Assembly: GCA_947044405.1 (NCBI GenBank)
Contig: CAMRHE010000355.1
Span: 1,750,501 to 1,814,500, forward strand
Length of the DNA: 64,000 nucleotides
Reading direction: 5' to 3'
DNA from: Leptodactylus fallax
Lineage: Eukaryota > Chordata > Amphibia > Anura > Leptodactylidae
The notes beneath the pieces are model-generated. The model ran no database searches. It saw only the letters and a list, made by a program, of their open reading frames with translations, and had not been told where the DNA came from. Shown here in pieces: positions 29,936-60,196 of the stretch; position 1 is the first letter of the stretch, and every line of letters begins with the position of its first letter. The position numbers and the translations under genes are program-made.

Positions 29936-31405
29936 TTGAGATGTGAAACCACCGTCGTGTTGTCGAAAATTTATTTTTACATCTTTCTTCTGAAATAGAT
30001 GTTTCGCACTCAGAAGAGCTAATCTGACCTCCATAAGTTCTTTGAAGTTTAATGTTGCAGTTCTTGATTTTAAGTCCCACCTTCCCTGCCATAGGCTTTC
30101 CTCTAGGTGAGCATTCCAGTGTTTACTGACAAAGGAACCAGTCAAATTATCCAAAAGGGACAGGATAGCATACTGTAGGCACCTGGAATGATGAAGAGCC
30201 CACTTTACTGCTGGAATAGTTGACATCATCAAGCCTAGAACTGACATCGCTTCTCTGATGGTACATAGATGAGAAATGAATAAGACTGAGGTTCTGGCTT
30301 TTTCTATCAGTAGGAAAGACTTCTGGAAGGAAGATATTGTACTATTAACCCTTTTTGTCTCACTGAAGATGCCACTTCTGCCATTACCTTGGTGACAAAC
30401 CTGTGGGTCTGTGCTACTCCAAATGGCAGAGCCCTGTACTGAAGATGGAGTAAATTGCCTCCCCCCAGGCTGCTAAACTCAGAATTTTTTGAGAAGACAG
30501 GTGTATCAGGATGTGATAATATGCAACTTCAAGGTCTAATGTAGCCGTCACACATTAAGGAAACAGGAGAGGAATAGTTGAGGATATAATCTCCATTTTG
30601 AATATCTTCTATAAGAGAAACTTGTTTAATTTGTTCATGTTCATTATAACCCAAAAGGATCATTGGGCTTTCTTACCAGGAACAGGTAAGTAAGTAAAAA
30701 TCTCTTCCTGGTGAATGGCAGTCACAACCTTCTTGTGAATTATGTACAGAATTTCTGATTCTAAGGCCTGTCCTTTTTTTCTTGGATCCCAGGGAGGTAG
30801 TGATCTAACCTGAATCCCTCTTTTATGCCAGAAAGGACCCATCTGTCTGAAGAAATTTCTTCCCAAGTGGAAGCAAAGAGGCAACCTTCCTACGACATTG
30901 CTGACTGGGACAGGATCTATCTTGTTGAGAACAAATAAGGGCTTTTTAGAGAATGATGTCTTCTTGCATCCCTGACCCCTATCTTGGGATCTATTTTTTG
31001 GGAGAAAAAATTATTTCCCTAAAATGTTCTTTCCTAGAAGGCCATCAAGACTGTAGAACTGGGAAGACCCTTTTTTGTCCTATCTGAGGTATTCTCAAAA
31101 ATTTCATCTAGTTTTGGTTAAAACAGAAGATTGCTAGAAGATTGTCCCCTGATCTCCTCTTTTCAGTTCTTAAGCCACAATACCCTCCTAGCTGAATATT
31201 ACATAGTGGCAGATCTAGCCGCTAATCTAGTGGCATCAGCAGAAGAGTCTGCTAAACATTCAGAGGCGTTGACAAAAGAGGAATAAGATGCTAAGGTCTG
31301 ATCTCCCAGAGAGTCAGCTTTTAAATGTTCTTCTAATTGATTGAGCCAAACCCTAAGAGAATGGGCCACGCAAGTGGACGAAGACTACTGGTTGCTGCTT
31401 CCAAA
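29936..31405 (-). pseudogene. DIRS-like retroelement: gag end, RT and start of RNase H
   Basis: On the minus strand, from about 31340 down, the order is: gag C-terminus (SADATRLAARSATM, ARRVLWLKN), RT (FASTWEEISSDRWVLSGIKE, LQYRALPFGVAQTHRFVTKV), then MSVLGLMMSTIPAVKWALHH and the RNase H start NFKELMEVRLALLSAKHLFQ. This is the domain series of DIRS-type tyrosine-recombinase retroelements. Multiple stops and frameshifts are present. The partner YR domain is not present here but appears in the related copy at 62385-62975. Confidence 0.78.
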
Positions 31406-31414
31406 TCCTCTTAA

Positions 31415-31625
31415 AGGTGTTGTCCAGGAAAACTTTTTATTTATTTATTTATTTTTTATGAGGACGGGGAAGACAAAAAAAAAAACACAAAACCCATACT
31501 CACCTGTTCCTGGTGTCTCCCAGTGCAGTCCAGTATTTTCTTCTAGCAGAAGTCCCCACCGCACGTGACCCGTGAGGCCAATAAACGGTGACGTCTCATC
31601 TCCTTTCCTTAGGCCGCTGATTCAC
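31415..31625. mobile_element. TTAA-type MITE, left part
   Basis: TTAAAGGTGTTGTCCAGG near 31411 followed by the family's poly-A, ACTCACCTGTTCCTGGTGTC and AGGCCGCTGATTC blocks. It is cut off at about 31625, where another repeat starts. Confidence 0.65.
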
Positions 31626-33490
31626 TGTTCTGGTACTTCAGGGTCCCTGCAAATGGGACATGGTGCCTGAAAACTATTTATGGGAATTCTGCCCTACAAA
31701 TAGAATTTTATCCCTTCTTAGTCCTGCTGTGTGCCCACACATTAGTTTATATCCACATGTGGGACATTTCTGTAGTTAGGAAAAATTACTTAGCAAATTT
31801 GGAATGCATTTTCTACTTTAACCCCTTGTAAAAATGAAAACAAATATGGTAAGTCCTGGGCCCCATGTGGCACAAACAGTCACTGAAACAGTCACTGTAT
31901 AGTATCTAGCGAATCCCATCCCCACAATGCAGGAAAATATGCGCTGCAGACACGCCACGATTTCCAAAACCATTGCAGTTTTGGAAATCGCATGTCAATT
32001 ATACCTACGGAAAAGCTGGCGGTTTCCCTATAGGTATAATTGAAGCAGAAAGTCCACAGAGGAAACCTCTCCGGACTTTCTGTGAAAAGCGCTGTGAGAA
32101 AAACTGTGATGCGTTGCCACTGCGGTTTTCCCCACATCGCTTTATTGCTGCGGCTCGCTATGTGGGGCCTTAGCCTTAAACCAACATTTTATTTGAAAAT
32201 ATGTCATGTTCCAAATTTACTGCTCAATTATGTGAATCACCTGTGGGGTCCAAATGCTCACTATACCCCTTGATAAGTTGTCTAGTTTACAAAATGGGGT
32301 CATATGTTGGGAGTTTTCATTTTTCTGACACCTTGGGGGCTCTGCAAATGAGACATGGTTCCTGAAAACTATTGCAACAAATTCTGCCCTCCAAAAACTG
32401 TTCTGTCCCAATATGTGCCCATACATCAGTTTACATCCACATGTGGGGTATTTCTGTAGTTGGGAAAAATACTTAAATTATGGGGAGTATTTTCTCCCTT
32501 TTAACTCCATGTGGCAATGAAAAAATTAGGGTTAAAACAACATTTTATAGAAAAAAATGTTGATTTCCATTTGACCTGTAGGGTCAAAGTACTCACTATA
32601 CCCCTTGATAAATTTCTTGAGGGGTCTAGTTTACAAAATGGGGTCATATGTTGGGAGTTTTCATTGTTCTGACACCTTGAGGGCTCTGCAAATGAGACAT
32701 GGTTCCTGAAAACTATTCCAACAAATTCTGCCCTTTGAAAACTATTCTGTTCCAATGTGTGCCCATACATCAGTTTACATCCAAATGTAAATGTTTAACA
32801 AAATGTGGGGTGCAATTTCTTCTTTAACCCCTTGTGAAAATGAAAAATTTGGGGCTTAAGTGACATTTTATTGTTAAAAAAAAAAAGGAATTTTTCATTT
32901 TCATGTCTCAATGGTAAAAAAAAATCTGTGAAACACCTGTAGGGTCAAAGTACTCACTATACCCCTTGAAAAATTCCTTGAGGGGTCTAGTTTCAAAAAT
33001 GAGGTAATTTGGGGTGGGGGGTCCACTGTTCTGGCACTTCAGGGGTTCTGCAAATGTAACATGGTGCCTGAAACAGATTCCAGCAAAATCTGCCCTTCAA
33101 CATCCCAATAGTGCTCCTTCCGTTCTGGACCCTACATTGTGGCCATACATCAATTTACATCCTCATGTGGGATAATTTCATGCTTGGGAGAAATTGCATA
33201 GCAGATTATGGAATGCATTTTCTCCTTTAACCCCTTGTGAATGTGTAAATTCTAGGGCTAAATGAATATATTAGTGACAGAAAGTGAAAAGTGTAAATTT
33301 GACCTCCATTTTGTTTTGAGAATGGGGTGATTTATGGGTGTTTCTATTAGACAGGTCTTTCAAGATCCCTTCAGAACTAAACCGGTCCCTTGAAAATGTG
33401 TTTTGGAAATATTCTTGAAAATTTGGAAAATTACTGCTTGACTTGTAAGCCTCATAATATCTGAAAAACATGAAAGTGTGATTAGAGTTT
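31626..33490. repeat. Tandem-like dispersed repeat, ~320-340-bp units, plus hairpin repeat
   Basis: Landmarks GAGGGGTCTAGTTTACAAAA, TTCTGACACCTTG, CTCTGCAAATGAGACATGG, CCCATACATCAGTTTACATCC and TTTAACCCCTTGTG recur in the same order at about 31640, 32285-32520, 32615-32840 and 32975-33240, with increasing divergence. 31865-32175 holds a separate palindromic repeat. No coding sequence. Confidence 0.75.
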
Positions 33491-33559
33491 TATTGCAAAT
33501 TTTCTATTTTTTCATAATGAAAGACAAAACATATCGACCAGACTTTACCACTGATACGA

Positions 33560-35195
33560 AGTACAATGTGTCCCGAAAAAAATAATCTCAGAATCACTTT
33601 GATAACATCTCAAAGTTATTACGACATAAAGGTGTTCTGGGCAGTCAATGTTGACCGGATTCCTGTGTCAACGCCATTACAAGAGGTGGGGGAGAAGTCA
33701 GCCACAGCCATCCCAGGTCGCCTGCTACCATCAACCACAGGCTTTGTGTACGGGCTGCACCCGCGGCACCAGTAATACCGCCACACCCTGCTCCTGCTTC
33801 ATCACCGCCTGCTGCCCTGAGCACCATCATAATCTTGGGGGGGGACCATATTTCTGTGGGAAGTCACTCTGCTACAACAGCAGCTGCACAGCAGGTTGAA
33901 CCACTTGTGTACAGGAGCACCATGAATCCGACCACCGTGACTGCCTTCTACCAGGTCATGAAGAGAGGAAGTTGGCCCAAGAACTGCAACAGAAGTCCAG
34001 ATTGCTGGAGTCATCAACATCATCCATGCCAGCCTCACCTCCCAAGCCATCGGGACCATCACCTGCAGAGGCTGAGCAGTGAGGAGGCTGCCACCAGTAA
34101 GCATTGTGCCTCCTATTCAACACCTGATTGGGGAGAGCAAGATTTGTGACCCCTGGAGTGATTACCTGAACTCTTTACAGTTGAACATAGCCACCAAGTT
34201 TTTGCCCCTTAGCTTGGTGCCAAACTTGTGGCCACTACCCTAGTTACTTCTTGTTTCATCATACAGTGTGAACAGTGGACACTGCCCCAGTTCATCCTCT
34301 TGTGTCATTTCCCCATGCTCCAGGATTGGACACTTACACACCTGTGCTCTGGAGTCCCTTATGTTTTTGTTGAGGCCCTGGGATTGGACACTCACACATC
34401 TGTGTCTCAGGGTCTTCTTTGTATTGTTAACACTCCTTTTCCCCATTTGTTTACCGGTACCTGAGATGGACACAAATGTACCTGTGCTTCAGGTACTAGG
34501 TCTTCGCCCATGTTCTCCCTTCCTCAACCTTGGACCGGACTTTTGACTGCTGTATATGTTGTATATATTGCCTTGTTGTTGTTTAACCCTTTTTTTCCTT
34601 GTAGGTTTTGTCTTGTCCGCTGTAATTCCTTCCCTAATGTGGGCCTGGTAGTTGGCGTGGGCGGCTCATGTTAAAATAGGGGGGAATTGTAGCATCGCAG
34701 AGTGCTCCTGCTTATATTTTGTTTGTATTTGTGCTTCTGGGTTATGTTTGTATGTCCTGTCTATATGTATTGTGTTCTATGTATTTGTTTGCAGCTTTCC
34801 CCTTGTTATTTCCCTGTGGTTCCCCTTTGTTCAAACTCTTGTACTTGGTGGGGTCTGGGAGTCTTAGTGTTAGAAATGTGTTAGTAGTGTGAGAATGCAG
34901 AGGAGACATCACTGACCACTGAGACCTAGCAGTACTTTTACAGCCCCTGAGGAGGATGATTCAAGTCCAAGGCTCATCTTTAGACAGCCTTGAGTCAGGG
35001 AAGATCAGCTGTCAGCACTTTGGACATTGTGCCAGGAGGAGTAGTGGAGTTCATTAACAGGAGGTATTGTCCCGGCACCTTCTACAAGGTAACCAGACCC
35101 CTGTCAGGACTACCCTGGAGTACAGTCCCCAATATCTGCTGCTGCTGGAGGAGGCTGAGGAGTGGAGTTAGAGTTGCAGTGGAATACGGCACTAG
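33560..35195 (+). mobile_element. Possible LTR-retroelement remnant (3' internal region and 3' LTR)
   Basis: A polypurine-like AAAATAGGGGGGAAT (34673-34687) is followed directly by TGTAGCATCGCAGAG, as at a PPT/3' LTR border. Upstream 33640-34560 is proline/serine-rich in several short frames but contains no RT, RNase H or integrase motif. The 5' LTR and LTR end were not found. The class is a guess. Confidence 0.3.
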
Positions 35196-35430
35196 AGCCT
35201 AAACATCACTGGGCATCCTCTCAAGACCAAGGCTATAGTGGGAGACTACAACCCCCATTTGGAAGCTGCTGGTTTTATTCAGTTGCTGAGTAAAGTTCAA
35301 ACCTGTTTCAACTGCACAACTGCCTTCCTGAGTTGTTCCTGCAATTACCATCAGGGCCCTTCCGAACACGATCACACCGGCTATGTCAAATGTTCGCCTT
35401 GGGGCCCAGCCATTTCTAGTTACGCCACTG
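35196..35430. mobile_element. Terminal piece of a hAT-like element
   Basis: Ends with TTCTAGTTACGCCACTG at 35430, the complement of a CAGTGGCGTAACTAG hAT-type terminus. GGGGCCCAGCC and AATGTTCGCCTTGG precede it. The opposite end was not found. Confidence 0.45.
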
Positions 35431-36159
35431 TCTGGTGGCAAGTCATCTTACACTACTACTCTCATCCTACGATTGCCTTCATCTAGGCTGCGGCATATTG
35501 AGCCTCATTTTCCTCTTAAAATGGCCCATTAACCATAGACAAACCAAGGGCTTCCATCACAAATATCTGGACCTCATAATGGCAAATGGTCAGGCAGCAG
35601 AACTCCATATTATTTTCATAAACCTCCATCTTATACCCTATTGACTACAGATGGTGGGCACCTGAGGAAGCATGTGTTGGCAGATATACTGACAGTAATG
35701 AACACCTGATTTGAAATGAAAATTAAATACTACTTATTGCAAAATAAGGACATTTATGTATGATATTACACACTTGTCAGAATTCTAGACTATACAGAAT
35801 ATAGAAGCTATTTACTCCTATCATGTTCATGCAGGAAGATCTGTTCTTGTACTACTGTATATCTATCATTACAATAGCAGAAAATTGTAACAGATCACTT
35901 TCTACCATTTGTTCCCTCCTAGATATTCCACGATCAGCAGAAATTGGCATTTTTGAAAAATGGAAGCATTTATGCACCACAGCCATGTACAGTTAGAGAG
36001 CGGGGTCCCTGAGTACCGAGGCACATAAAAGTCTCTGCTCTGCTGAACCAATAACTACATCGCTCTGCATCTCCTCCTTCTACTGACTGATCACATCTCT
36101 CCACTGCCAGCCATATGGATGAGACTGAATTTGGAGAATGCCAGAATGTATCTGCTGGA
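35431..36159. other. Non-coding interval
   Basis: Nothing recognisable on either strand. Confidence 0.4.
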
Positions 36160-36487
36160 CTGCATTGTACGTTCAGTTAAGACTGGTGGAGGAGGGATAA
36201 TGCTATGGGGTTGATTTTCATGGGTTGACTTTTTAGTTTCACTGAGAGGAAATCTTAATAATTCAGCATGAATAGACATTTTGGACAATTGTATGCTTCC
36301 AGCTTTGTGGGAACATTTTTGGGAAGGCCCTTTCCTGTTCAAGCATGACTGTGTCCCAGTGTACAAAGCAAGTTCCATAAAGGTATGGTCAGATGAGTTT
36401 GGTGTAAAAGAACTTGACTGGCCCACAAACAGACCTGACTTCAACCCCATCGAACACCTTTGGGATAAACTAGAGCAGAGATTGTGA
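36160..36487 (+). pseudogene. Tc1-like transposase fragment
   Basis: Reads VRSVKTGGGGIMLWG (the GGGS region), an intermediate frame-broken part, then FLFKHDCVPVYKASSIKVW, where the DN-D-PxH motif is degraded, and NRPDFNPIEHLWDKLEQRL with the catalytic Glu. No inverted ends were found. Distinct in sequence from the other Tc1 families in the window. Confidence 0.78.
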
Positions 36488-36559
36488 TTGGTTGTCATGA
36501 CAGCCGGGAACCTATTCAAGGCTCTCAGGCTTGCCATTAGCATGGCTCTATTACAGGCT

Positions 36560-37225
36560 GCCATGGGCAGTGTGTAATAGAAGTCATAGGATTTTACTAT
36601 TCACTGCAATACATTAGTATTGCAGTGAATAGTATGAGCGATCAGACCCCATGGGGTTCATGGTCCCTAGGTGAATGGCGTAACGGGGAAAAAAAATCAA
36701 AATAGCCAAATAGATGTTTTTTCAACTTTTTGCCTCCTATAAAAAATGGAATAAAAGTTGATCAAACTATCAGACCTTCCCCAAAATTGTATCAATAAAA
36801 ACGCAATCTTTTCCCGCATAAAAGATGCCTTACCCAGTCTCTAAACACATAAATATAAAAAAGTTACAGGTGTCACAATATGGCAACAGAAATTTTTTTT
36901 TTCTATTTGCAAAGTTTTTAATTGTTTAAAAGGTATCAGCACATTACAAATACTATATAAATTTGGTATCACCGTGATTGTACTGACCTGCAGAATACAG
37001 GTAACATATCAATTCCATCTCATTCTGAATTTTTTTCCAGCTTCCCAGTACATTGCACAAGATATTGAATGGTGCCATTACAAAGTACATTTTGTTTCGC
37101 AAACAATAAGCCATCATGTGACTCTGTGAACTGAAAAATGAAAAAATGATGGCTCTTGGAATGGGGGGAGGGAAAAACAGAAATGCAAAAACAAAAATTG
37201 GCTGTGGCATGAAGGGGTTAAAGTG
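36560..37225. repeat. Dispersed repeat, longer copy
   Basis: Shares AAATTTGGTATCACCGTG, TTTTTTTCCAGCTTCCCAGT and GATGGCTCTTGGAATGGGG with the copy at 21850-22165, and extends further upstream with AAAAAACGCAAT-type sequence. Non-coding. Confidence 0.7.
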
Positions 37226-38054
37226 AAAGGGAAATGAGCTGCAATACCAAGTACAGCTACTGTACCCTGTGCTTGGTTTACAGTGGATAGGTCACAGCAT
37301 TCATCTGAATGCTATAGTGTCTCCAAACAGTTTATCTGTATGGGTTATGATCTTCGATGAGTGACTTAAACAAATGATAGACCATCAGTCTTATAAGTCC
37401 AGAAATAATAATAATGCCTGTGGGTTTAGAATGGGATGTCATAAAAGCACCTCCACGTGTAATGTGTAGATGTCCCAATACATTTATACATATATACTGA
37501 TCCTGGTTCTGGTACCATAACTATACATTTAGACTGATCATTTTATTATCTCTCTATAATGAGCTAATCTTTGATCCTTCTCATAAAAGGGCTTGAATGT
37601 GTCAAGATGTGCTAAATATGTATTAAGGTTGATTTGTAAAATTCTGGGTCTGAATGAAACTACAAGGTGGTGTAAACCTAGACCAGACAGTATAAAGATA
37701 CACCAGATTTATCATCCAGCATCGGCCACTGTGAAAACTGTGATAAATCTAGTAGATTTTCAGATAGATGTTTAACTTTACACCGTCTATTAGTAAATCT
37801 GGGCTTGAGACTTTCAAGGTTGAAGACATTCTTGAACATGGTTTAGTATTACAAATGTCAAGTAAGTAAGCTTCATTCTGCAGGCTAGATTTGTCCCCAT
37901 ATTCCATAAAAACGGTACAAAAAAGAAGCCTGGTCACAAGAAAGAAAGAAAGAAATTACTCAAACAGTTACACAAATCTCATTCTCATTCTAGATTGTAA
38001 ATAAAACACTTATTCACACACAAAAACAGAAGAAATAACACAGAGGCGATATAT
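37226..38054. other. Non-coding interval
   Basis: No gene or repeat array recognised; a short GAAA-type run at 37941-37956. It lies just beyond the probable polyadenylation end of the minus-strand gene. Confidence 0.4.
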
Positions 38055-38488
38055 AAAGTTAATGTGAAGTTTATTCTATGTATTTGTATGTTCTATATGT
38101 GCTGGTTACCTCCCATCACTCACGAAGAGCATACAGCAACACTCAGGGCAGGAAAAACCCCCAGTGGAGGAAACCTGCAGGGAAACCATGGCCACTGTAT
38201 TGCCCCACCTCTGGGCATACTAAGGGAGGTTACCACTATAGCATGTATTAGTGTATATGTGTATGCATGTGTGTAATGATTGTGTGTATGTGCAGTGACT
38301 GTGTATAGTGATGAAATGTGTGCATTTATGTGTGTTTTTGTGTGTGTGTGACCATAAAAAATACTTCTCTCCTTGATTTAGGTCTTCATCCATCCTGCGT
38401 TGTTCTTCTCTCTAGAGGTCTGGCCGATGTCTTCATCCATCGTGTCTTCTTAGTTGTTGTTCTCCTTGTCGGTCTGGCAGCAGTACAT
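38055..38488 (-). other. Probable 3' UTR exon of the Speedy/RINGO gene
   Basis: The stop-bearing exon ends with a strong CTG|GTAAGT donor at 39554/39553, downstream of the TAA. The next good acceptor is TTTCATTTCTACTTAG at about 38504-38489. An AATAAA polyadenylation signal is present on the minus strand at 38075-38070. A TG-rich stretch (38250-38355) lies within. An intron in the 3' UTR could expose the transcript to NMD only if the stop lies far upstream; here the stop is about 11 bp from the junction, so this is not expected. Confidence 0.5.
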
Positions 38489-38927
38489 CTAAGTAGAAAT
38501 GAAAGAAGGAAAACTTTAGTAACACATTTATTGTAGAATAGAGGCAGATCAATGTCCTACAATATGCCATAACAATCCCATAGATGTGGCTCCAACCCCT
38601 GACCTCCAATATGAAGAATAAAGGGGTAGAGGTCTCTGCCACAGAGCCCCATTCAACTGTTAGGTTTCAACCTCTAAGATTTGTAGTTAGGAGCCGTTCA
38701 CATCACGTTTTTTTCTTTCAGTGGAACAGACACATTTTGATACAAAAAAAAAAAGTCAAAACGTGTTGCTCAACATCTCCATAGACTTCTCTATGTAAAA
38801 CGAATGTCAAAAGTGCATACTTTTACCTCCAGTACATCATATTCCGTTGTATTTAACGGACAGAAAAGTGTGGCATACCACACATATCCTTCCATATGAA
38901 AAACGGATGGAAATATATACTTTGGGG

Positions 38928-39285
38928 ACTTCTCAGACCCCAGTATAATAAATAGAGGCCCAGGGGAGGTGAGTGAAAATAACAAACAGCTATTTCTCAC
39001 TTCTCTTGTTCATCCAGTGGTCCCTTGGCATTGTCTTTTGGTCTCTTTTGGCCCCTGGATGATATTATGCACCCAAGGGTTACCGCTGAGGCCTGTGATT
39101 GAACCTCATTGGTCACATGGGGCATGGTAAGATCACAATGCTAGGTCAATGTTGTGATGTGAGCATGCCCCTTCTGACTGCTGAGGCCAAAACACAGGTC
39201 TCATCCATGACCCAGGACTGTTTATTTCATTCACCTCCCCTGGGTGTCCACTTATTATATTTTAGGGTCTGATATGACCCAGAGC
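38928..39285. repeat. Foldback MITE in the 3' UTR intron
   Basis: AGACCCCAGTATAATAA at the left pairs with TTATTATATTTTAGGGTCT at the right, and GGCCCAGGGGAGGTGAG pairs with CACCTCCCCTGGG. The interior resembles 9030-9385 of the second hAT element (CTCAC, CTGAGGCC, GCCCC...GACTGCTGAGGCC). Confidence 0.7.
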
Positions 39286-39562
39286 ATAATGATAGCACTT
39301 TTGGAAATGAAGCGGGGGAGGGGCGAACCTCATGAATATTTGTCAAACCAAATCTCGTGAGGTTCGCCCATCTCTACACACCGGTATTCATGGCTCTGTT
39401 CAACCAAACTGATCTGTTTTTTAATGTACAAACAGATGCATATTTGTATCCATTTTTACTATTAAAAAAAAAACAACAGATCAGTTGAACGGACAGCAGA
39501 AACGTCATGTGTCCCTTACTTGAAGTTCTCTTCCACACAATGGATACACTTACCAGAGATGA

Positions 39563-42500
39563 TTATGACTCTGCTGTTCCGGGTTCCTCCTCTGCGTCTG
39601 TCTGATGATGAATGTCTTCCGCCTCTTCTTCCTTGCCCGAATGTAGATTGGTGTTGCAAAGGGAACAGGTTGGAGGGGTGATCCATGGTCCTCTTATGCT
39701 GAATTCTTCAATGTCCCTCCTGAACCAGCGTATAGCCCAGCTGTGATGGTCTTCTCTCTCTCTCTTCCATGCCCAATGGTTGGGGTCTTGTGCCATGATC
39801 TAGAATTTAACATCATCTAGAATTATTATAATCACCACAAGCTTTTGTTCAAAGTTTATATCTTTCTGTTTAATGCTACACACCAGATCGCAGGTGTCCT
39901 GGTCTACCCAGGCTCTAAACTCCATCTTGAAGAGCACTAGGTCACGAAGGTGAAGCAGCTGGTCCTTCTTCATAGTCCATGTCGATCCAGGGGTCCAGGC
40001 GTAGATCTCCTGTCGAAATTGCAGATCCTCTTCAAATTGGTTGGCTAAAAACCTGGCAGAAATAAAAAGTAGGGCAAACAAATTATAGAACATGTAAAAG
40101 GGAGATAATGAGGAGAACAAAGTGGTGATATCATTAATCTTAAAGGGGTTCCCAGGCAATTAAAATTATATTAAAAGCAGCTCTGTTTTGTAACAAATAA
40201 CACAAGACATACTTACCTTATCGATCCCCTGCTGCTCCAGTTCCAATGCAGTTTTGTAACAAATAACACAAGACATACTTACCTTATCGATCCCCTGCTG
40301 CTCCAGTTCCAATGCAGTTTTGTAACAAATAACACAAGACATACTTACCTTATCGATCCCCTGCTGCTCCAGTTCTAGTGCTTTTAGGGAACCCACTGGT
40401 CTCTACTTTTTGCTGCAGCAATGATGTCCTAACACCGAAGATGTGACTGCGACAGCCAGTCACTAGACACAGCAGTGACCCGCTCTAGCCAGTGACTGGC
40501 TGCAGTGGTGACATGTTCTGGTGTCAGGATGTCACTGCTATTAACATACTGTTGTTTTCTAGTAGCGTATGAATGGCATGCTATGTTAATAGCATACAGT
40601 GCTGTGGCGCATTATATTAACAGAACAGTGATCTACGGTTGTGCAATTAATGGCTGCTATAAACCTATAAAGGCAATTTGATGACTGTCTTCTCTGAAAC
40701 ACATACCATATGTATAGATTGGGTTAATAATAATAGAAACTTACAGACACGGAAAAAAATACTGGCGATATTCCTCTATACGCAGTCTGGCTCTTCTGAA
40801 GTAGATCAGGACCATGGCCAGGAGATACTATTGGGATAAAAGGAGAGTGAGAAGCTTGTTATAGATTTCTTAATACATAATAGTATGCAGTACAGTTATA
40901 TGAGCTCAGTATATTCTTGTGGTTACTGATATCTGCTTACAACCTGACTGCAGCATAGATTGGGGCTATATTTCATTGTATAACATCTACTCATCAAAGG
41001 TCATGGTTTCCAGAGCTCAGGAATATTTTCTATTCTTTCCCTCAATATTATAATACCTTGTCCGAGGTCTTAAGACAGCTGTCCCTGTCTAGATATAACT
41101 TGATATCCTCGTCGTCTATAAAAGTAACCGAAATAAGACATCAGTTTAATGTATTTCATCAATACCTTCTGAAATGTTCAGAACACCTTTATATCTATAG
41201 GGAAGGAAGAAACTGCTTTATCATTGTTGTATTATAAAAATAAACAAACATCAAGATAGCGTCCATCATTTTGTTTACATGAGTGTCAATGGGAACAGAC
41301 ACAGATGGAGGGGGCTCTGTCTGCATCCGTAACTCGGCTACAGTTAATGTCCTTTGTTGTCATCCTGGATGACAGCAATAAACATTGACAACAGTTGTTG
41401 TCACCCTTAGTGTTAGCCTGTGAAAAGGCTAGCACTAAACACTCAAATATTACCCTGGTACCCAACGCCATCAGGGGTGCTGGGAAGTGCTGGCTATCAT
41501 CCAATACCTGGCCACTTAAGAGAAGGCCAGGCACTGGAGAAGTCATAGCCTGATATGCGAAGGGCCAAAAACCGTGGTTATAAAAACTAGGGGGGGGGGG
41601 GGCATGTCACTAAAAAAAAAAAAAAAGATTGAAAAAATAATTAATTGATAAAAAATGACACTCCCCCCAATTTTTCATAACCAGCCAGATATAACAAGTA
41701 GCAGAAGCCTGACATTACCAGGGTGGGAAGGGCCACAGGTTTCAGCCCTTCACAGCCTAATAATAACAGCCTGTGGCCGTGCCACTTTCCAGCAGTCTCT
41801 TTAGACCCATTATGTATAATTTTGTGTAAAAATTAGATACTTTCCGTCTGGTTGTAGGAGCTGGAAGGAGTATTTTACCCAGGAGTTTGAAGAAAGCAGT
41901 CTGTTCTTCTGTCTGCAAGATGCTGTCATCTGTCTTCCTCTTCTTGGATTCCTCTTGGGGGTCAGGCCGTGAACTGTGAGAGAAGAAAGAGATATTAAGC
42001 CTCACATTCACGACCCATTATGGTAAATAATAATATGATGAAAAAAAGACATGTAAGGGACCATAGTGGGCCACAACATGCCTATGAATTAATATTTAGA
42101 CATATGGAGGTTTCTATTATTTATTCTTATGATATCTGAAAGATTAAAAATAATGTTTCATCAGATGCCATATTAAGAAGATTTCTTTCTCTTAAATGCA
42201 CTGCATTCGTCTAAGAGAATAATCTTCCATTGTATAAAGGGCACATTCATAGGTACATGGAGTGCATATGGCTCTGTAGTTTAGAACCCTACAAACCCCA
42301 AGTGACAAAATAAGTGAACCTTTACATAAGACGTTGCTATGCCCATGAAGTCTTACTGCAGGTTTATACAGTATAGTATGTGTAAGGTACAGACACATAA
42401 TAACAAAAGGCAACATTCATCCTGGTCTCCTCATGGGTAAATCTCATAATAAATTGGTTGTCCAAGATTAGATATTGATGTGCTATCCTTAGGTTAGGTC

Positions 42501-42877
42501 ATTAATATTAGATCAGTAGCGCTCCGACATCAGACCCCCCACTGATCAGATGACATGTGTACAGAGTTGGAAATAGATGGCTCCTTAAACTGTGTAGTGT
42601 CTGTGCTTCAAGTGAATGGGAGCTGAGCTGCCAAAGAACAAGGCCACCATGTAGTGGATGAAGCCATCTTCTTCTGGCTCTGTGCGGAAATTAGATGATA
42701 GGTGGTGGTGTCAGTTGACAGATTCTTACCGATCTAACATTGATGACCTATTCTAAGGATAGGCCATCATTGACTGATCTTTGTAATACAGTGATATACA
42801 CTGTTGCACTTACGACTCCTCTTCATATTGGGCAATAAGTTCTCTCTTCCTTTTTCGCATCATATCTCCTCTTCTTC
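39563..42877 (-). CDS. Speedy/RINGO-family cell-cycle regulator, spliced
   Basis: Speedy/RINGO proteins bind and activate CDK1/CDK2 independently of cyclins (family knowledge). Exons on the minus strand, each with AG acceptor and GT donor and matching phase: 42877-42814, 41973-41879, 41115-41057, 40827-40763, 40052-39884, 39799-39563 (stop TAA 39565-39563). Together they give about 230 residues: a basic, acidic-tailed N-terminus (RKRKRELIAQYEEES), then the Ringo domain (TAFFKLL, DIKLYLDRDSCLKTSDK, YLLAMVLIYFRRARLRIEEY, FLANQFEEDLQFRQEIYAWT, QLLHLRDLVLFKMEFRAWV, MAQDPNHWAWKRERE) and an acidic C-terminus. The last coding intron is only 84 bp. The join between the 40763 and 40052 exons lacks about seven residues usually present before the LAN motif, so a micro-exon may be missing. 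The 5' end is uncertain: exon 42877 enters in phase 1, or an internal ATG starts it. No frame-breaking lesion is seen. Confidence 0.85.
40185..40383. repeat. Three tandem 66-bp repeats in a Speedy intron
   Basis: GTTTTGTAAC starts at 40185, 40251 and 40317, an exact 66-bp period, with near-identical copies. On the minus strand each copy contains the donor-like GATAAG|GTAAGTATG. A multiple of three, the array stays open in one frame, but no coding role is supported. Confidence 0.9.
41116..41878. other. Speedy intron with G and A homopolymer runs
   Basis: Intronic sequence between coding exons; G run at 41591-41602 and A run at 41611-41627. No other gene seen. Confidence 0.6.
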
Positions 42878-43050
42878 CTGGGAAATGTGAAGGGAAAGAA
42901 AATTGTACATGAATACTTGGGGATGTGACTGAACAAGACCTTACAGAGAAGTTTAAGCATAAACTTAGAAAAATCCACGCACCACAACACCAGTCAGATG
43001 CGCTGTCCTATCTAAGAACAGGAGAAAAGCTATGCTCTGTGATATAAAGG

Positions 43051-43092
<42 letters not shown>

Positions 43093-43200
43093 GAGAAAGT
43101 GACAGGACAAGTGCTGGAGTCACGGTATGTCAGTCCCCGGGTTTTGTCATATAGCTGGTCCAGCACGGGGTTTTGAGTAAGCCCCAGCTCAGGTGCGGGT

Positions 43201-44077
43201 ATGCTTCAGCCTACCTAGATGACATTGTCATCTTTAGTACGGACTGGGAGAGTCACTTACCAAAGGTCCAGGCCGTACTAAATTCCCTTCGGGCAGCTGG
43301 TTTAACCGCCAACCCAAAAAAAATGTGCTTTGGGTCTGGAAGAGGCCAAATACCTGGGGTACATAATAGGCCGAGGGGTAATAAAACCACAGGTTAATAA
43401 AGTAGAGGCCATCCAAAATTGGCCCAGACCCTTGAATAAAATGCAGGTGAGAGTTTTTTTTGGGAATCGTAGGGTACTATCGTAGGTTCATCCCTAACTT
43501 TGCGACTATTGCAGCCCCGCAGACAGACCTGACTAGGGGAACTAGCTCTGTAATGGTTAAGTGGACTGAAGAGGCTGAGGGGGCCTTTCAGGAGTTGAAG
43601 TCAGCTCTCTGCAAGCAGCCGGTGTTGATTACACCTGACTTTGCGAAAGAATTCATAGTTCAGACTGACGCCTCTGATGTGGGGTTAGGGGCAGTGTTGT
43701 CCCAAATGGTAGGTGGTGAAGAGCACCCAGTTACCTATCTGAGTAGGAAACTTACACCGCCAGAAAAAAATTACAGTATTGTGGAAAGGGAGTGTTTAGC
43801 CATTAAGTGGGCCCTCGAATCCCTGAGGTATTACCTACTGGGCCGACACTTTAAATTGATCACTGATCACTCTCCCCTTACTTGGATGTGCCATACCAAA
43901 GAGAGAATTGCCAGAGTAACCAGGTGGTTTCTAACGTTACAGAACTTCAAATTTACAGTGGAACACAGAGCAGGCAAGCTGCAGGGGAATGCCGACGCCC
44001 TGTCCAGGACCCATTGTATGTTGGCTAGAGGTGTCCGCCCCTACAGGTCCGAACAAAGGGGGGGGGGGGGTATGTGA
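43201..44077 (+). pseudogene. Gypsy pol fragment: RT end and RNase H
   Basis: RT catalytic box SAYLDDIVIFS (about 43206), then GIVGYYRRFIPNFA (43460), and RNase H with FIVQTDASDVGLGAVLSQ, YLSRKLTPPEKNYSIVEREC and ITDHSPLTWM, ending in the HRAGKLQGNADALSR tail. One frame shift around the T run at 43452-43459, and another before it. Everything upstream of the YLDD box (gag, protease, most of RT) is deleted. Confidence 0.88.
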
Positions 44078-44563
44078 GAAAGTGACAGGACAAGTGCTGG
44101 AGTCACGGTATGTCAGTCCCCGGGTTTTGTCATATAGCTGGTCCAGCACGGGGTTTTGAGTAAGCCCCAGCTCAGGTGCGGGTCTTGAGGCTCATTACTG
44201 GCCCATATAGACCTGCAGAGCCTGCACTTGAATGCAGATCCTGGGGAGTGAGAGCAGGCGTCTGGATCTGTCCTGATCTCCCAAAAACAGTTATTGTGCA
44301 AAACTGGTTGCTGGTGTGGCTGACAGACAGCCACACAGGTTAGTAAGCAGTGTTCTGTTTAGGTAGCCGCTCAGACGAGCAGGAGTTTTGTTTATTTTTG
44401 TGCCTGATGTTAAGGCTGATATTGTTTTGCCTGTTTCCCTGAAGAGAAGGTTTATTTATTTTGTTGTCATTTTTCAATAAACCTGTTACACCTAAGTTTT
44501 CGTGTCACTGTCTCTGACTGTTTGGGCCCGCACCTAGGCTGCTACCGAGCTACCTCCCTCACA
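44073..44563 (+). repeat. Gypsy 3' LTR, 491 bp
   Basis: Begins TGTGAGAAAG directly after the polypurine tract and ends CCTCACA. AATAAA at about 44476 is a polyadenylation signal candidate. Confidence 0.85.
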
Positions 44564-44579
44564 ATATATATATATGAAC

Positions 44580-44934
44580 AGGTTTTCTAAGAAAGAGGTA
44601 AAGTAAATCCTGACAGGACTCTTAGGAGACATAGTGAGATTCCTGCTTACCCTGCCCACAGACAATGATTGACAGTGTTCTGTGTACACACATGAATAAA
44701 GGGAAATTTGTCAATTGAGAGTATGAGGGGCAGCGCTAGGCAGACTTTTTGGCTGAGATTCTAAACTGGAAATGCCAGGCTCTGAATCTTGTAGTACATA
44801 TTGCTGAAAACTGTTTTCCCCAGTAATGTAGAATTTTTTCACCAATATGGAGATAGGAGCTTGGTGAGGGGGATGTGCCCTACAATGTACTGTAGGTAGC
44901 TTCACATTGATTAGTCAGATAACAGACTCCCTTT
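44580..44934. mobile_element. Possible TTAA-type MITE (AGGGAGTCT family)
   Basis: The right end CAGACTCCCT abuts TTAA (44931-44936 region). A related end, GATAGACTCCCTTTAA, lies at 63155-63168. The left end is not clear. Confidence 0.4.
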
Positions 44935-45589
44935 AAAAATGTCTCATAAATAATATAAGCTTTTATTACTGACATGAAACGTTAACAAAAAGTATCTGGA
45001 AACAATGTCAGCTAATGGGTTTGTCTGGTATCTCAGCACAGCTACATGTACTGGATTGGGAGTAACACTGTGTCTAAATAAAAGAGACTTTTCCTAATTC
45101 CTCACAATCTCTGTAACAGTTAACATGTCAAGAATGAGCACCAAAAATTATTCAAATGATCTATTGGTACCTGAGTTTTTCACTATTTACCTATTTAATC
45201 AAATTTCTCCATATTTCATCTTTTTTCCCAATATTTATCCATATATAGCTATAATTACTCAGGGTTCCCCATAGTTTATTTATTGTCACCCAAGTATCTT
45301 CATATTTATGTATAGTCTCTTCAGTTTCTCCATATTTATCCACAGTCACCCAAGTGTATATATAACCTTAGTTTATGTAGTTTAAGTATCTTCATATGGA
45401 TAAACCCAAGTTTCTAAAATTCAGTTATATTTTTCCTATAGTCTCTCAAGTTTATCCATGTGCATCCAAGCCAGCTATTATATCTCACACAGTGTAAATA
45501 ATTTCTATTCCCTAATAACAGGGGTTCCCTCACTGCCACTTTCTAGGTTACATAAATCCGGATTTCACAATAAAGTGATGATATTTTAC
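44935..45589. repeat. Degenerate short repeats in a possible intron
   Basis: 45180-45480 contains irregular repeats of TTTCTCCATATTTATCC and AGTCACCCAAGT. No gene otherwise. Confidence 0.45.
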
Positions 45590-45742
45590 CTCTGTTGACT
45601 TTCTACTAGCAGTTCTCTTCTTAATCCACAGATATCGATCGGGTTTCAGTAGTCGCTTTCTCTCTTGTGGGATAAATAGGGAGCCGGTCTCAACTCTAAA
45701 AGAGCAATCGCTGACTGGCACCAACTGACGTTTCTTTTCCAT
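45590..45742 (-). CDS. Candidate first coding exon of the Speedy/RINGO gene
   Basis: An ATG at 45742-45740 opens 51 codons (MEKKRQLVPVSDCS... ending ...TASRKSTE) followed by a GTAAAA donor at 45589. The peptide is basic with a serine/proline flavour, plausible as an N-terminus. It ends in phase 0 while the next recognised exon (42877) starts in phase 1, so an intermediate exon would be needed, or it belongs to another transcript. A gypsy element lies in the gap. Confidence 0.45.
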
Positions 45743-47288
45743 GTTTATATTCACATACTGCGATGCTATTGGCTGATGTTTGCGGCACATGCCAGGATAA
45801 GTCATGCGGCACACGCCAGTGCCAGGATAAGCCATGCAGCGCTGAATGTAAAGGGAAAGCAAAGGCTAATAATGTTATACTGCATTAAATATATTACATG
45901 TATTCTCTATCATGAGATCTTGACAATTAATAGAAATTTAGAAAATTACAGCATTAAAAGCCACATATAAAACTAATCCAAAAACATTAACATTAAAGTC
46001 ATGTCAGAAGAGAAATGTAAAGAGCCTAAAGTATAAATATGTTACACATGGCCAATAGTGTGTGCATCTCCATCCTTATTATACAGTAAGTCCTCATGCA
46101 CAGGACGTGCGCACAGTTAATGTGCTAGTCGTGTTTTTCACAGCTAGCACTCTGACCCTTTCATTTCTATGGCCCCATACACTTAGTGTATAGGGCCGTG
46201 AGCAAAACTTAGGACTGGTCCTATTCTTGTCCATTTTGCGGATTGTGCTCACTGGCCTTAATGTGGTGCACAGGTATTACACGGATGACATCGATGTTCC
46301 GTCCATGCCGTTCAATCATGGCCCAGCGACATGCACCCAAACCTTGTACATCCTTTGCCTGCCGTTTGTGTATTAGACCTTGGCTTCCCCTGGACTTCAC
46401 CTTGGTCTGCTTATTTGGTGCCATGAATGTCCTTATATTGCTGCCTCAGACTCTTGCCTCTGAATCAATTGATCTCTGATATGACCCTGACACCTATCCG
46501 GATTCCTTAGGCTTGGAGGACTTACGTCGATTATCTATCTACCCATCCATCCTGGATTCATATTTCCATCTTTACATAGGAAGTACATTAGGTGAGTATA
46601 TTTATGGACTTTTGATCCTGGGATTATTTTCCAACAGTCATATTTGAAGTCAGGAAAGAATGTTTCCACTTACATTTTACAAAGGGTTTTTTTTTAACTG
46701 GTCCAGTAATTTTATTTATTGCTGGATCACCATTCATCCAACAAAAAAAAAAAGGATGTCTAAACACGGCCTTAATCCCTTGTTTCTCCCATAAAAGTGC
46801 TTTAATAAGGCAGAAGTATAAAAAGCAGATAGGGACCAGAAAGAAACCCAATCCGCTTAAAAAGCAGCAACACGCGGAAACCCACCGACCCCATAGACTA
46901 TACTGAAATCGGCGAAGAGAAAAGTCCTCCTTCCAGGACTTTTCTCTCTGACAATTTTAAGAGGAATCTGGGGTGGAGTGCCTGAACACTAGTGTGAACA
47001 TAGTGTGAACAAGTCTACAGTTTTGGCACAGCTACAAATGTAAGGACAAGAGGCTTAACTCAAGGAAATTTTCTTAAAACGCTATGCCCAAATAAAAATG
47101 GTGGTAAATATCCCAAAGTGACACCAATGCGGTACTACAGCTCGCCCCTCTAGAATGGCTCTAGGAATGTAACAAGCTTTTATTGAGAATATGTGAAAGA
47201 ATAAAGAAGGTTGCATTGTGTAATGTTATAAACATTATTCCTTACACAGCCCACATGCTTGCCATGTCCGCGCTGCAGAGCCTCTAAT
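45743..47288. other. Non-coding interval with one unrecognised short frame
   Basis: A minus-strand frame at 46221-46424 (67 codons, MAPNKQTKVKSRG...) is basic and not recognised. Its base composition is less A/T-rich than its surroundings, so it may be an old coding fragment. A hairpin repeat with AAAGTCCTCCTTCCAGGACTT sits at 46840-47000, and another MITE-like piece (GGCCCCATACACTTAGTG) at 46165-46200. Confidence 0.35.
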
Positions 47289-47445
47289 GGGGACATACTA
47301 AAAAGCACGAAGAAAAAGAATGAACAATGTTATAAATTGCTATAATTATTAAGACAAGTATAATGATTTTTTTGTGCTTTGGAGACATAAAATGATAAGG
47401 TTATACATATAGTTTATACTGGAATAAACACATATTCCACATTTC

Positions 47446-48985
47446 CTATTCGTCCTGAGGCAGCACAGAAGGGTCTTTATCCCCGTCTTTAACTCCTCCC
47501 AGGACTGGCTCACCTACATAGAAATGAGACAGGTTGGGGTGCTCATCTGCAAACTTCTTGGGCACAAGGACTATGGGACAAATTAGACAGGCTCCATTAC
47601 TTAAATTTTCAAGAGATGAAAGCTGTCAGGTTGGCACTTCTGCATTTCAATCCATCAATTCAGGATAAATTAGTCCTAATTCAGACAGACAGCCTATTTC
47701 AGACAGCCTATTATTTGAACAAGCAGGGTGGAACACAAAGCAGGTTACTGATGACAAAATGTAGGAAGATTTTCCAACTGGCATAATCTGACCTGCTGGA
47801 CTTAAAAGCTCTGCATATAAGCAGATCTTCTGATCCGGACGACACTCAGATCACCGGAATGGGAATTAAATCTCAAGTTTTTCCATCTTCTGACAGACGG
47901 ACGGGGAATGCCACAGATAGACTTGATGACAACCAGAAACAATGCAAAACTTCCAATGTTTTGTTCTCTGAACCCACAAAATCACCCATACACAGTGGAT
48001 GCGTTCTCCATGAGCTGGAGACACAAATTTTTTAATGTCTTCCTCCAGTCCAGATCATCCAGAGACTCCTGCAGAAGATATTGCTGGAAGGTTCATCAGT
48101 GATAATAGTAGCACCATTCTGGTCCCGGGCTTGGTGTCCTCTATTATTTCAAATTTTGAACAAAAAGCACAGGCCTCTTCCTCAGCATCTGGATTTGTTA
48201 ACCCAGAAATCTGTTCCATCCAGAGTTAGCTAACTCCATCTTTCAGCTTGGTTTGTGAAGGGCTAAGAACCTAAAGTTTCTTCTTTTGAAAATATTAATA
48301 AAGAATCCTTCTAACAGTTTTCTATCCTCATCCTGTTACGGAAGAACAGATACGTTTCCACACAGTAGATGTCAAAAGAACTATTCTGACTTATCTGGAT
48401 AGAACCAAAGATTTCAGAAAGCAGGAAAATGTATATGTACTCTTTTCAGGTGCTAGGAAGGGGATGAAATCCTCTAAAGACCCATTAGCCAGGTGGATCA
48501 AATCTACTATTTTTGCAGTTTACAGATTAGCAGATCTCTCTTTACCAACTTCACCAAGGGCACATTCTACACGTTCCAAGGCAACTTCATGGGCTGAAGA
48601 CGTGCAAGTATCTATTCTGGATATTTGTAATGTTGTTTTCTGGAGCTCTTCCTCTACATTTATCAAGCATTATCATCTGGACATCCACTCTGAGGGTCCA
48701 GCATTGCTTAATATGGATTCCAAATGATCATCCCCCCCTCTCCCTTAGGTAGCTAGTTAGGTCCTTTCTGTGCTGCTGCAGGACGAATAGGAAAGACAAA
48801 ATTTGTGTTTCACCTGGAATTTTACTTTCCTTGAATCCTAAGGCAGCACAGCATACCCACACATTATATTATACCATTGATTATGCTAATTAGCTGTCAT
48901 TGGTACTTGGGTGGATCGGTTCTGGGAGGAGTTAAAGGCGGGTATAAAGACCCTTCTGTGCTGCCTTCAGACTCAAGGAAAGTAA
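47446..48985 (+). mobile_element. DIRS-like retroelement, internally deleted, with inverted ends
   Basis: Starts CCTGAGGCAGCACAGAAGGG (about 47456) with AACTCCTCCCAG. The right end carries the complement, CTGGGAGGAGTTAAAGGCGG and CCCTTCTGTGCTGCCTTCAG (48919-48969). An internal CAGGACGAATAGG (48779) complements the left CCTATTCGTCCTG. Inverted ends plus an internal complementary region are the DIRS structural signature. Confidence 0.85.
47560..48727 (+). pseudogene. DIRS-like RNase H and tyrosine recombinase fragments
   Basis: RNase H-like: FQEMKAVRLALLHFNPSIQ (47615), VLIQTDSLFQTAYYLNKQGG (47670). Then the adjoining domain: DLMTTRNNAKLPMFCSLNPQ (47920) and FNVFLQSRSSRDSCRRYC. YR C-terminus: FSGARKGMKSSKDPLARWIK (48445), PRAHSTRSKATSWAEDVQVS with the catalytic R, and VVFWSSSSTFIKHYHLD with the H-x3-Y nucleophile region. 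Stops and frameshifts throughout. Confidence 0.82.
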
Positions 48986-49640
48986 AATTCCAGGTAAATT
49001 TTGTCTATACAGACATATAGTCAATTCCCTGTGGTTCCTAGGCATGAAATGAACAGGTTATATGTGTAATTTGGAGTGGAATCAATACATATTCCACATA
49101 TACAGGCATGCAGTAAATTCCCTGTGTTCATAGATGTGGAATGAACAGGTGATCTGTGTAGCTCAGTGAAATAAACATATATTTCACCTATACAGGCATG
49201 TAGTGAATTCCCTGCGCTTCGTAAACGTGGAATGAACAGGTTATATGTGTACTTTACAGTGGAATCAACACATATTCCACATATACAGGCATGTAGCAAA
49301 TTCACAATGCTAGGTAGATCTGGAATGAACAGGTTATTTGTGTAGTTTACAGTCAATTCAAGACATATTCCATATATACAAGTATATTGTAAATTCTCTG
49401 TGCTTCATAGATGTGGAATGAACAGTTTATATGTGTAGTTTATAATGGAATTTACACAAATTCCACATATACATGGATGTAGTGAATTCCCTGCGCATTG
49501 TAGATGTGGAATGAATAGGTTATATGTGTAGTTTAAAATGGAATGAATGCATATTCTACACATACAGGCATGTAGTAAATTCCCTGTGCTTCGTAGGCGG
49601 GAAAAGAACAGGTTGTATGTTTATTTTATAGTGGAGTCAT
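48986..49640. repeat. 93-bp satellite array, block 1
   Basis: Units contain AGGCATGTAGTGAATTCCCT, GTAGATGTGGAATGAACAGG, TTATATGTGTAGTTTA and CACATATTCCACATATAC; spacing is 93 bp between 49194 and 49287. About seven copies. Confidence 0.92.
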
Positions 49641-49753
49641 AATAATAATAACTTTATTTATATAGCGCCAACATATTCCGTAGCACTTTACAAATCAGAG
49701 GATACATGAACAGACAATATGAGACATTACAATGTGACAAAGAAATAAACAAA
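49636..49753. repeat. Dispersed tetrapod-type repeat, left half
   Basis: AATAATAATAACTTTATTTA followed by TATAGCGCCAACATATTCCG and TAGCACTTTACA, a familiar vertebrate interspersed sequence. It is split by the Tc1 element and continues at 58171-58225 (GGGCCCTGCTCGCAAGAGCT). Confidence 0.7.
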
Positions 49754-50361
49754 CAGTGGGGAAAAAAAAGTATTTAGTCAGCCACCACTTGTGCAAGTTC
49801 TCCCACTTAAAAAGATGAGGCCGGCCTGTAATTAATCATAGGTAGACCTCAACTATGAGAGACAAAATGAGAAAACAAATCCAGAAAATCACATTGTCTG
49901 ATTTTTAAAGGATTTATTTGCAAATTATGGTGGAAAATAAGTATTTGGTCAGTAACAAAAGTTGATCTCAATACTTTGTTATATATCCTTTGTTGGCAAT
50001 GACAGAGGTCAAACATTTTCTGTAAGTCTTCACAAGGTTGGCACACACTGTTGCTGGTATGTTGGCCCATTCCTCCATGCAGATCTTCTCTAGAGCAGTG
50101 ATGTTTTGGGGCTGTCGCTGGGCAACACGGACTTTCAACTCCCTTCAAAGGTTTTCTATGGGGTTGAGATCTGGAGACTGGCTAGGCCACTCCAGGACCT
50201 TGAAATGCTTCTTATGAAGCCACTCCGTCGTTGCCCTGGTGGTGTGCTTGGGATCATTGTCATGCTGAAAGACCCAGCCACATTTCGTCTTCAATGCCCT
50301 TGCTGATGGAAGGAGGTTTGCACTCAAAATCTCAGAATACATGGCCCCTTTCATTCTTTTA

Positions 50362-52958: not shown

Positions 52959-53974
52959 TCTTGCTGTGGTTCAGGAACCTTTTTACAAGCGTGTATCCAG
53001 GTAGATTTTCCCTCCGATTTGACTGAAGTGGCAGTTGTCAGCAGTACTTGGAAGGGACCGTCATATCTGGGTTCAAGAGACTTCATGGTGTGTCTTTTCA
53101 TGACCACCCAATCACCAGGCTGCAAGCTATGTGTTCCTGAAAAATCAGAAGGGTCTGGAATAGAAGAAAACACTTGTTTATGTGTTACTTTCAGTCTTTG
53201 ACACAAGCTCTGAACATAGCTGGCAGTGCTGTCATAATTGAGTTGTAAAGTCTGAGGAAAATACAACCCCAACCCAGGCACACTTCCAAACAATATCTCA
53301 AATGGTGATAACCCTGTCTTCCTGTTAGGAGTAGTCCTTACTGAATATAAAGCTAAGGACAGACATTCGGGCCAGGGCTTTCTTGTCTCTGCCATGGCTA
53401 TCTGAATCTTCAATTTAAGTGTGCCATTCAACCTTTCCACTTTGCCTGAACTCTGAGGATGGTAGGGTGTGTGGAAAGCTTGCTCAATCCCCAATGCAGA
53501 CAATATTTCTTTCATTATCTCACCTGTGAAATGTGTACCTCTATCAGATTCTATCACCTCAGGTATCCCAAATCTACACACAAGCTCAGACAGCAATTTC
53601 TTGGCAGTTACTTGTGCAGTCGCTTTGCTCACAGGGTAGGCCTCAGGCCACCCTGAAAACAAATTCACACAGACCAATACATACTCGTACGTTCCAGACT
53701 TAGGCAACTCTATGTAATCTATTTGTATTCTCTGGAATGGGTACAGGGATTTTGGTGTGCATTTGGTAGGTGTTTTAACTACCTGTCCTGGATTGTGTAG
53801 GGCACATATGTGACATGCTTTTACGTGATTACTAGCAGCCCTTCCAAAACCTGGGGCAAACCATAATTTACCTACTAATGACTCCATGGCATTTCGAGAG
53901 GCATGCACCTTACCGTGGGCCAAGCCAGCCATTTGGGGGTATACTGCTGCAGGTAGACACAGTCTATCCCCCAT
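52955..53974 (-). pseudogene. Endogenous retrovirus integrase
   Basis: Same frame as RNase H after one stop. Zinc domain (HGKVHAS...CHICALH), catalytic core IQIDYIEL, ESDRGTHFTG and HPQSSGKVERLNGTLK (D, D-35-E), and a C-terminal tail with YDGPFQVLLTTATSVK, the GPY/F-type module of gamma/epsilon elements. 339 codons are open, so integrase is nearly complete; the very N-terminus lies upstream of the chosen Met. Its end overlaps env by 4 nt. Confidence 0.88.
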
Positions 53975-54013
53975 TTTCCACGTTCCTTCATACTCTCTGG
54001 CACCAGCCTTTTT

Positions 54014-54811: not shown

Positions 54812-54828
54812 GGAAAGATGACGTCTGT

Positions 54829-55060
54829 CTACCTGTGTGAGGATTGCATGGATGTCATGTGGTGTATATCCTTACTGGCCTTGCAGCCGCTCTGGCAGAG
54901 GAAACACAACAGGCTTATGCTAGCAGCTTCACATGTCTTTTTATCTGGGGCACAAAGAAGAAGATCATCAACATATTGTAGCAACACAACATCATCTGAG
55001 GGTGGTTCCCAGGCATTCATGATCAAAGTAAAACATCTCGTAAATTGATTTGGACTATAT
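54829..55060 (-). pseudogene. Endogenous retrovirus RT remnant
   Basis: Only the palm end survives: a SPNQFTRCFT-type segment, then VVLLQYVDDLLLCAPD with the YVDD box, then loss of frame. The fingers and first catalytic Asp are deleted, as is most of the region after YVDD. Confidence 0.85.

Positions 55061-58560: not shown

Positions 58561-60196
<1,636 letters not shown>

Follow-up and report, generated by a model that had tools for sequence, protein, structure and literature searches.

The 64-kb stretch of Leptodactylus fallax DNA analyzed here (hereafter the window; C355:1750501-1814500 in a 2.5-Gb assembly) carries on its minus strand an ordinary, well-supported gene that belongs to a known family, Speedy/RINGO, whose proteins act as non-cyclin switches of cell-division kinases, and to a frog-specific expansion of that family. 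Very probably, it is intact and codes for protein, and it belongs to a Speedy/RINGO branch that is specific to anurans and has been duplicated repeatedly. In the literature covered, i.e., titles and abstract openings, with subscription papers outside the scope, no description of a frog Speedy expansion was found.

The coding sequence is divided over six minus-strand exons (42877-39554), each preceded by AG and followed by GT, which join in phase, without stops or frameshifts, into a 230-amino-acid protein that runs from an ATG at 42863 to a TAA at 39565-39563 and ends in ...GTAES. An earlier note on this DNA had proposed such a set of open exons; that proposal was borne out, and the structure is repeated at four other loci of the same genome. 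In the direction of transcription, the features of the locus are as follows:

45744..45772, minus strand: promoter-like block (consensus match only), with CCAAT at 45772-45768 and TATAAA at 45749-45744
about 45590..45790, minus strand: 5' non-coding leader exon, with donor GTAAAA
43090..44565 (ends approximate), plus strand: retrotransposon remnant in intron 1, with an RT-RNase H ORF at 43460-44077; Ty3/gypsy type by our reading
42814..42877, minus strand: exon 2, coding from the ATG at 42863 (MMRKRKREL...); size and splice dinucleotides are the same in all four other full copies of subfamily A (the window gene's own; see below)
41879..41973, minus strand: exon 3, which recurs in the other full subfamily-A copies
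41057..41115, minus strand: exon 4, containing D67 (equivalent to D97 of Spy1)
40745..40827, minus strand: exon 5, its end corrected from 40763 to 40745
39884..40052, minus strand: exon 6, containing E104 and D105 (equivalent to E135 and D136 of Spy1)
39554..39799, minus strand: exon 7, with the TAA at 39565-39563 and 9 nt from there to the donor
38055..38488 (3' end approximate), minus strand: 3'-UTR exon, with AATAAA at 38075-38070, which recurs in subfamily-A loci

Four of the five junctions given in the earlier note (42814/41973, 41879/41115, 41057/40827, and 39884/39799) proved to be exact, but the remaining one, 40763/40052, was wrong and should read 40745/40052. Both donors keep the frame, but the use of 40763 would remove six residues (YFFPCL) from a stretch that is present in relatives, while the donor at 40745 (CT/GTAAGT) retains them; within this region, F93, L96, and L98 are invariant in an alignment of 16 proteins. 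A 66-bp repeat (40185-40375; 2.9 copies, 100% matches) lies in the intron that separates exon 5 from exon 6.

The gene had also been drawn as reaching from 45742 to 38055, and here the two ends fared differently. At the 5' end, the ATG at 45742 is not part of the coding gene, since it lies in an exon that is a real, conserved, non-coding leader. Spliced to exon 2, the ORF starting at this ATG runs into a TGA there in the window copy, and its reading frame is not conserved among five copies, one of which has no ATG at the site and another of which is frameshifted. As DNA, the leader exon is found in five of the six subfamily-A loci (the sixth is 5' truncated) and, with 72 to 77% identity, in 8 of the 14 other loci, and CCAAT and TATAAA stand immediately before the 45742 ATG in all five subfamily-A copies compared. 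The leader-exon DNA is also matched by a protein of E. coqui (P0055; frame -3; E 4e-5) and, weakly, by one of Rhinoderma (P0010; frame -2; E 0.05). The most probable start of translation is 42863. When the minus strand was searched by pattern from 42878 to 50000, no N-terminal exon of the 'MSSRFP' type seen in some relatives turned up, and reinitiation, for which the TGA of an upstream ORF would overlap the ATGATG in exon 2, was dismissed, that arrangement being missing in two of the five copies.

At the 3' end, the span down to 38055 does belong to the gene, but as a spliced 3' UTR, the stop having been reached already at 39565-39563. With the last junction only 9 nt past the stop, it is too close to trigger nonsense-mediated decay under the 50-nt rule, the usual criterion for that process. 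The 3'-UTR exon is matched in all five other subfamily-A loci (90 to 99%) and, over almost its full length, in eight of the 14 other loci (76 to 81%); five of the six subfamily-A loci (L014 being the exception) and those eight others have an AATAAA close to the end of this exon. The predicted 3' UTR was also inspected for Pumilio and cytoplasmic-polyadenylation elements, a candidate that was rejected: it contains no TGTANATA and a lone TTTTAT, approximately 284 nt before the polyadenylation signal. Finally, a match to the C terminus of a relative (P0006) at 34377-34168 of the window has an internal stop and is repeat-like, and it was excluded from the gene model.

A search of the assembly with the window protein returned 75 exon matches, which correspond to 21 places of the expansion and, in addition, to one SPDYC (C138) and one SPDYA (C1147), the latter two found through this same search and assigned by tblastn. 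The 21 places are a lower bound, but certain small contigs could represent second haplotypes; possible pairs are C1898 and C184, whose proteins are identical, and C2154, which resembles the first copy on C1307. Twenty of the 21 loci, that of the window included, were examined, C2154 having been matched by tblastn only. Five of these 20 have all six exons intact: the window copy, a second copy on C355, and copies on C69, C51, and C450. They make up the full copies of the window gene's subfamily (A), the four others having exons, GT/AG dinucleotides, frame, and stop as in the window gene; in one of these four, L014, exon 5 has lost 3 nt without a change of frame. The copy on C1604 is 5' truncated, with exons 4 to 7 open and exons 1 to 3 not found within about 15 kb upstream. 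Another eight loci are open over exons 4 to 7, on which openness was judged, exon 2 or exons 2 and 3 often falling under the alignment threshold in these loci; two of them, C184 and C1898, are open over all six exons. The remaining six (L016, L017, L018, L019, L027, and L028) are broken. On C1307, a contig of 137 kb, five Speedy copies of a second subfamily (L018 to L022) are spaced approximately 14 kb apart; two are broken, and two have identical proteins over exons 4 to 7.

The immediate surroundings of the window gene have themselves been duplicated. A 19.4-kb span (30332..49751, i.e., approximately 30.3 to 49.8 kb of the window) recurs piecewise 34 to 41 kb onward on the same contig, in pieces that are mostly 91 to 97% identical (one is 87.5% identical) and that include the second Speedy copy, 38 kb away. 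A third, partial repeat follows the tandem copy, and no Speedy gene was detected there. The retrotransposon piece in intron 1 has two identical 111-bp flanks and no counterpart in the tandem copy, and it was therefore probably inserted after the duplication. Since introns are retained in the copies examined, copying occurred at the DNA level, which disposes of an origin as a retrocopy; the family has grown by DNA-level, intron-keeping duplication, both tandem and dispersed, and not by retroposition.

The window gene's subfamily is under purifying selection, although this is not proven for the window copy alone. Over exons 4 to 7, dN/dS values between the window copy and the five other subfamily-A copies are 0.15, 0.12, 0.19, 0.39, and 0.61, and those against the eight other open copies range from 0.20 to 0.24; the values against frame-broken copies (0.27 to 0.50) were not counted as evidence. 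Among the five full copies, 24 synonymous and 26 replacement sites are variable, compared to an expected synonymous fraction of 19.8% (binomial p 7e-6). In the second subfamily, two pairs gave dN/dS values of 0.43 and 0.58 and one gave 0.98, so that constraint seems weaker there.

While these data concern the subfamily, the window copy could in principle be a young segmental duplicate that is still open but non-functional, being either not expressed or not needed, a reading that we consider unlikely. The changes private to this copy (two synonymous, two replacement) would allow it, as they are powerless to reveal selection on a single copy, but in close pairs the window copy does show a synonymous excess relative to L010, L011, and L012 (p from 0.0003 through 0.0005 to 0.001), if not relative to L013 and L014 (non-significant; 0.10 and 0.32). 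The proximity of the tandem copy and the retrotransposon piece, absent from that copy (the only one to which this comparison extends), would likewise suit a dispensable duplicate, and recent loss would be unremarkable in a family with 6 of 20 loci broken and one 5' truncated; nevertheless, all exons, splice dinucleotides, the leader, the promoter-like block, the 3' exon, and the polyadenylation signal have been retained. Moreover, 52 domain columns are common to 90% or more of the 38 remaining family rows, and in the window protein every one of these columns is intact; six of the 38 likewise break none, and the remainder break one to eight.

To place it among the Speedy lineages, trees were built from rows hand-picked to cover the groups, out of the best 120 of 700 and the best 120 of 492 proteins. 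In a 72-row tree, the window gene lies in an anuran-only group (100/100; 44 rows including the window gene). This group was recovered in a 59-row tree to which Xenopus and anuran SPDYA had been added (100/100; 26 rows including the window gene; bootstrap not settled), where the SPDYA rows form a separate 100/100 group, with the window gene outside. The window gene is likewise separate from the SPDYC rows, X. laevis Speedy 1-A being one of these; in the 59-row tree, the SPDYC rows form an unresolved set, into which a long-branched Mixophyes '1-B-like' row (P0172) fell instead of joining the anuran-only group. A one-residue deletion before an FF motif is common to the window protein and its 10 closest rows and absent from the Pelodytes, Ascaphus, and Leptobrachium rows; with the anuran-only clade, it assigns the gene to the anuran '1-A/1-B-like' group. 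The suggestion that the gene might belong to an expanded family as a lineage-specific member is therefore supported, both by the anuran-only group and by the 21 expansion places in the species' own assembly.

It is highly improbable that the gene is instead orthologous to Xenopus Speedy 1-A (SPDYC) or to SPDYA. The names of its relatives in databases, 'speedy protein 1-A-like' and '1-B-like', do point to Speedy 1-A, but the X. laevis Speedy 1-A record shows 79% identity to SPDYC of Rhinophrynus along its whole length and sits with the SPDYC rows, not in the 100/100 group that holds the window gene. L. fallax, for its part, has an SPDYC of its own (C138; pieces 72 to 100% identical to SPDYC of L. 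fuscus) as well as an SPDYA (C1147; pieces 47 to 80% identical to SPDYA of Bufo), although the AU test stops just short of rejecting a union of the group with SPDYA (p 0.063, a poorer fit than the free tree). In practice, this means that frog annotations reading 'speedy protein 1-A-like' or '1-B-like' often do not denote an orthologue of the Xenopus gene.

As for the origin of the anuran-only group, trees in which it was forced together with anuran SPDYC were as good as the unconstrained one (AU p 0.508), and an early duplication of anuran SPDYC therefore fits equally well. Because Ascaphus, Pelodytes, and Leptobrachium each have both members of the group and SPDYC, the split probably predates living frogs; long-branch effects are possible, given the long stem of the group (0.62 to 0.78). 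A wider scenario, for and against which we find the balance about even, would see in this group a third frog Speedy lineage, derived from an SPDYC-like ancestor before living frogs arose, that has evolved fast and multiplied repeatedly, in parallel with primate SPDYE and perhaps as a result of conflict over CDK activation at the level of gametes or meiosis. Primate SPDYE is a lineage-specific expansion of a Speedy gene, and the likeness lies in just this kind of multiplication; it concerns another lineage and presumably another parent gene, our trees having been made without mammalian SPDYE rows.

The identity of the protein itself, proposed on the strength of recognizable Ringo-domain motifs, was confirmed by a highly significant domain alignment: the Pfam Spy1/RINGO model (PF11357) matches residues 39 to 167 over its entire length (1-131/131) with an E value of 6.4e-40 and 137 bits, compared to a cut-off of 25. 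In a PDB sequence search up to E 1, human Speedy A (two distinct sequences, in chains from CDK2 complexes) was the sole match (E 3.3e-34), and a single-sequence search retrieved 72 relatives, with E values down to 1e-113. That a chance chain of open stretches had been assembled from exons that are short (59 to 246 nt) and set among repeats is already refuted by E values of 3e-34 to 1e-113 and by the same structure in sister copies.

The closest relative, the L. fuscus 'speedy protein 1-A-like' P0001 (79% identity over 94%), stood in for the window protein in an AlphaFold model built from database proteins (mean pLDDT 75.9, higher in the domain). Of 52 PDB matches to this model up to E 10 (Foldseek), the five at E ≤0.001 are all Spy1/Speedy A (TM 0.86 to 0.89 by target length), and the model shows the single cyclin-box-like helical fold of Spy1-CDK2. 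According to PMC6170502, D97, E135, and D136 of Spy1 touch the CDK2 activation loop and its arginines. Their equivalents in the window protein, numbered from the 38-residue spacing in the alignment, are D67, E104, and D105, so that, as judged from the alignment, the predicted CDK2-contact residues are kept. Among 39 aligned family rows, including the window gene's, D67 is present in 35 and E104 in all 39, while position 105 is occupied by D in 26 rows and by E in 13; of the four rows without D67, the three that were read look mis-modelled at exon 4.

Judged by homology, the window protein is most likely a working CDK1/CDK2 activator. The 230-amino-acid protein would bind CDK1 or CDK2 through its single cyclin-box-like domain, and the acidic pair E104/D105 would act with D67 to keep the activation loop of the CDK in an active state without T-loop phosphorylation, as in human Spy1-CDK2; its basic N terminus (RKRKRE) may direct it to the nucleus. 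RINGO was discovered in the oocytes of frogs, where it triggers meiosis without being a cyclin, and the analogy with Xenopus RINGO and with RingoA of the mouse suggests that the setting is perhaps the germline here too, in the oocyte or the testis. In PMC7348711, Speedy/RINGO is described as activating Cdk1 by direct binding and as inducing meiotic resumption upon injection into Xenopus oocytes; when its synthesis is blocked, resumption is delayed but not prevented.

Compared to the human protein (Speedy A/Spy1; PDB 5UQ1-3 and 7E34), the domain and the contacts corresponding to D97/E135/D136 are common to both, as is the fold seen on P0001, but the window protein is one residue shorter before the FF motif and the tails differ. 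X. laevis Speedy 1-A, which we take to be the RINGO/Speedy of the 1999 papers, shares the RINGO domain but has 300 amino acids and belongs to the SPDYC tree group. Nearer at hand, P0001 and proteins of other hyloid frogs have the Spy1 domain in common with the window gene and join it in a tree group (100/98). The five L. fuscus rows cluster by themselves (100/100) beside the window gene's subfamily, apart from the L. fallax copies, so that copies probably multiplied independently in the two species. Where the window gene has its 3'-UTR exon, L. fuscus P0001 and P0003 have a basic, arginine-rich tail, which appears to be translated, their stop being displaced compared to that of other hyloid relatives; the ...GTAES-plus-stop ending of the window gene resembles the ...GTADS or ...GTAES of some of the latter. 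A frog-only, multiplying set of RINGO-like genes, at least one subfamily of which is under purifying selection, offers a testable case of CDK-activator dosage and diversification.

As regards the remainder of the window, the statement that Speedy was the only host gene to be supported was a fair one. The window contains 19 ORFs of at least 150 amino acids, none of them from the Speedy exons. Pfam was run on 15, of which nine had domains above the cut-off (retrovirus, retrotransposon, GIY-YIG, or Tc1/mariner), one had a reverse-transcriptase-associated domain below it, and five, including two of tandem-repeat type, had no accepted domain; the other four of the 19 are tandem-repeat ORFs, and further spliced genes with short exons may exist. 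On the minus strand, 51417-55553 is a gammaretrovirus-like endogenous element with separate protease, RNase H, and integrase (MLV-type C-terminal domain) ORFs and an envelope-like ORF of 513 amino acids. Tc1/mariner (Sleeping Beauty-like) transposase ORFs are found at 16546-17208, 18481-19230, and 58780-59859, the last of which is open over 359 amino acids. An ORF with a GIY-YIG domain (12849-13595) possibly belongs to a Penelope-like element. Finally, the long repetitive ORFs that arise from tandem repeats of approximately 31 and 59 bp, at 1464-2900 and 10217-11323, are unlikely to be genes.
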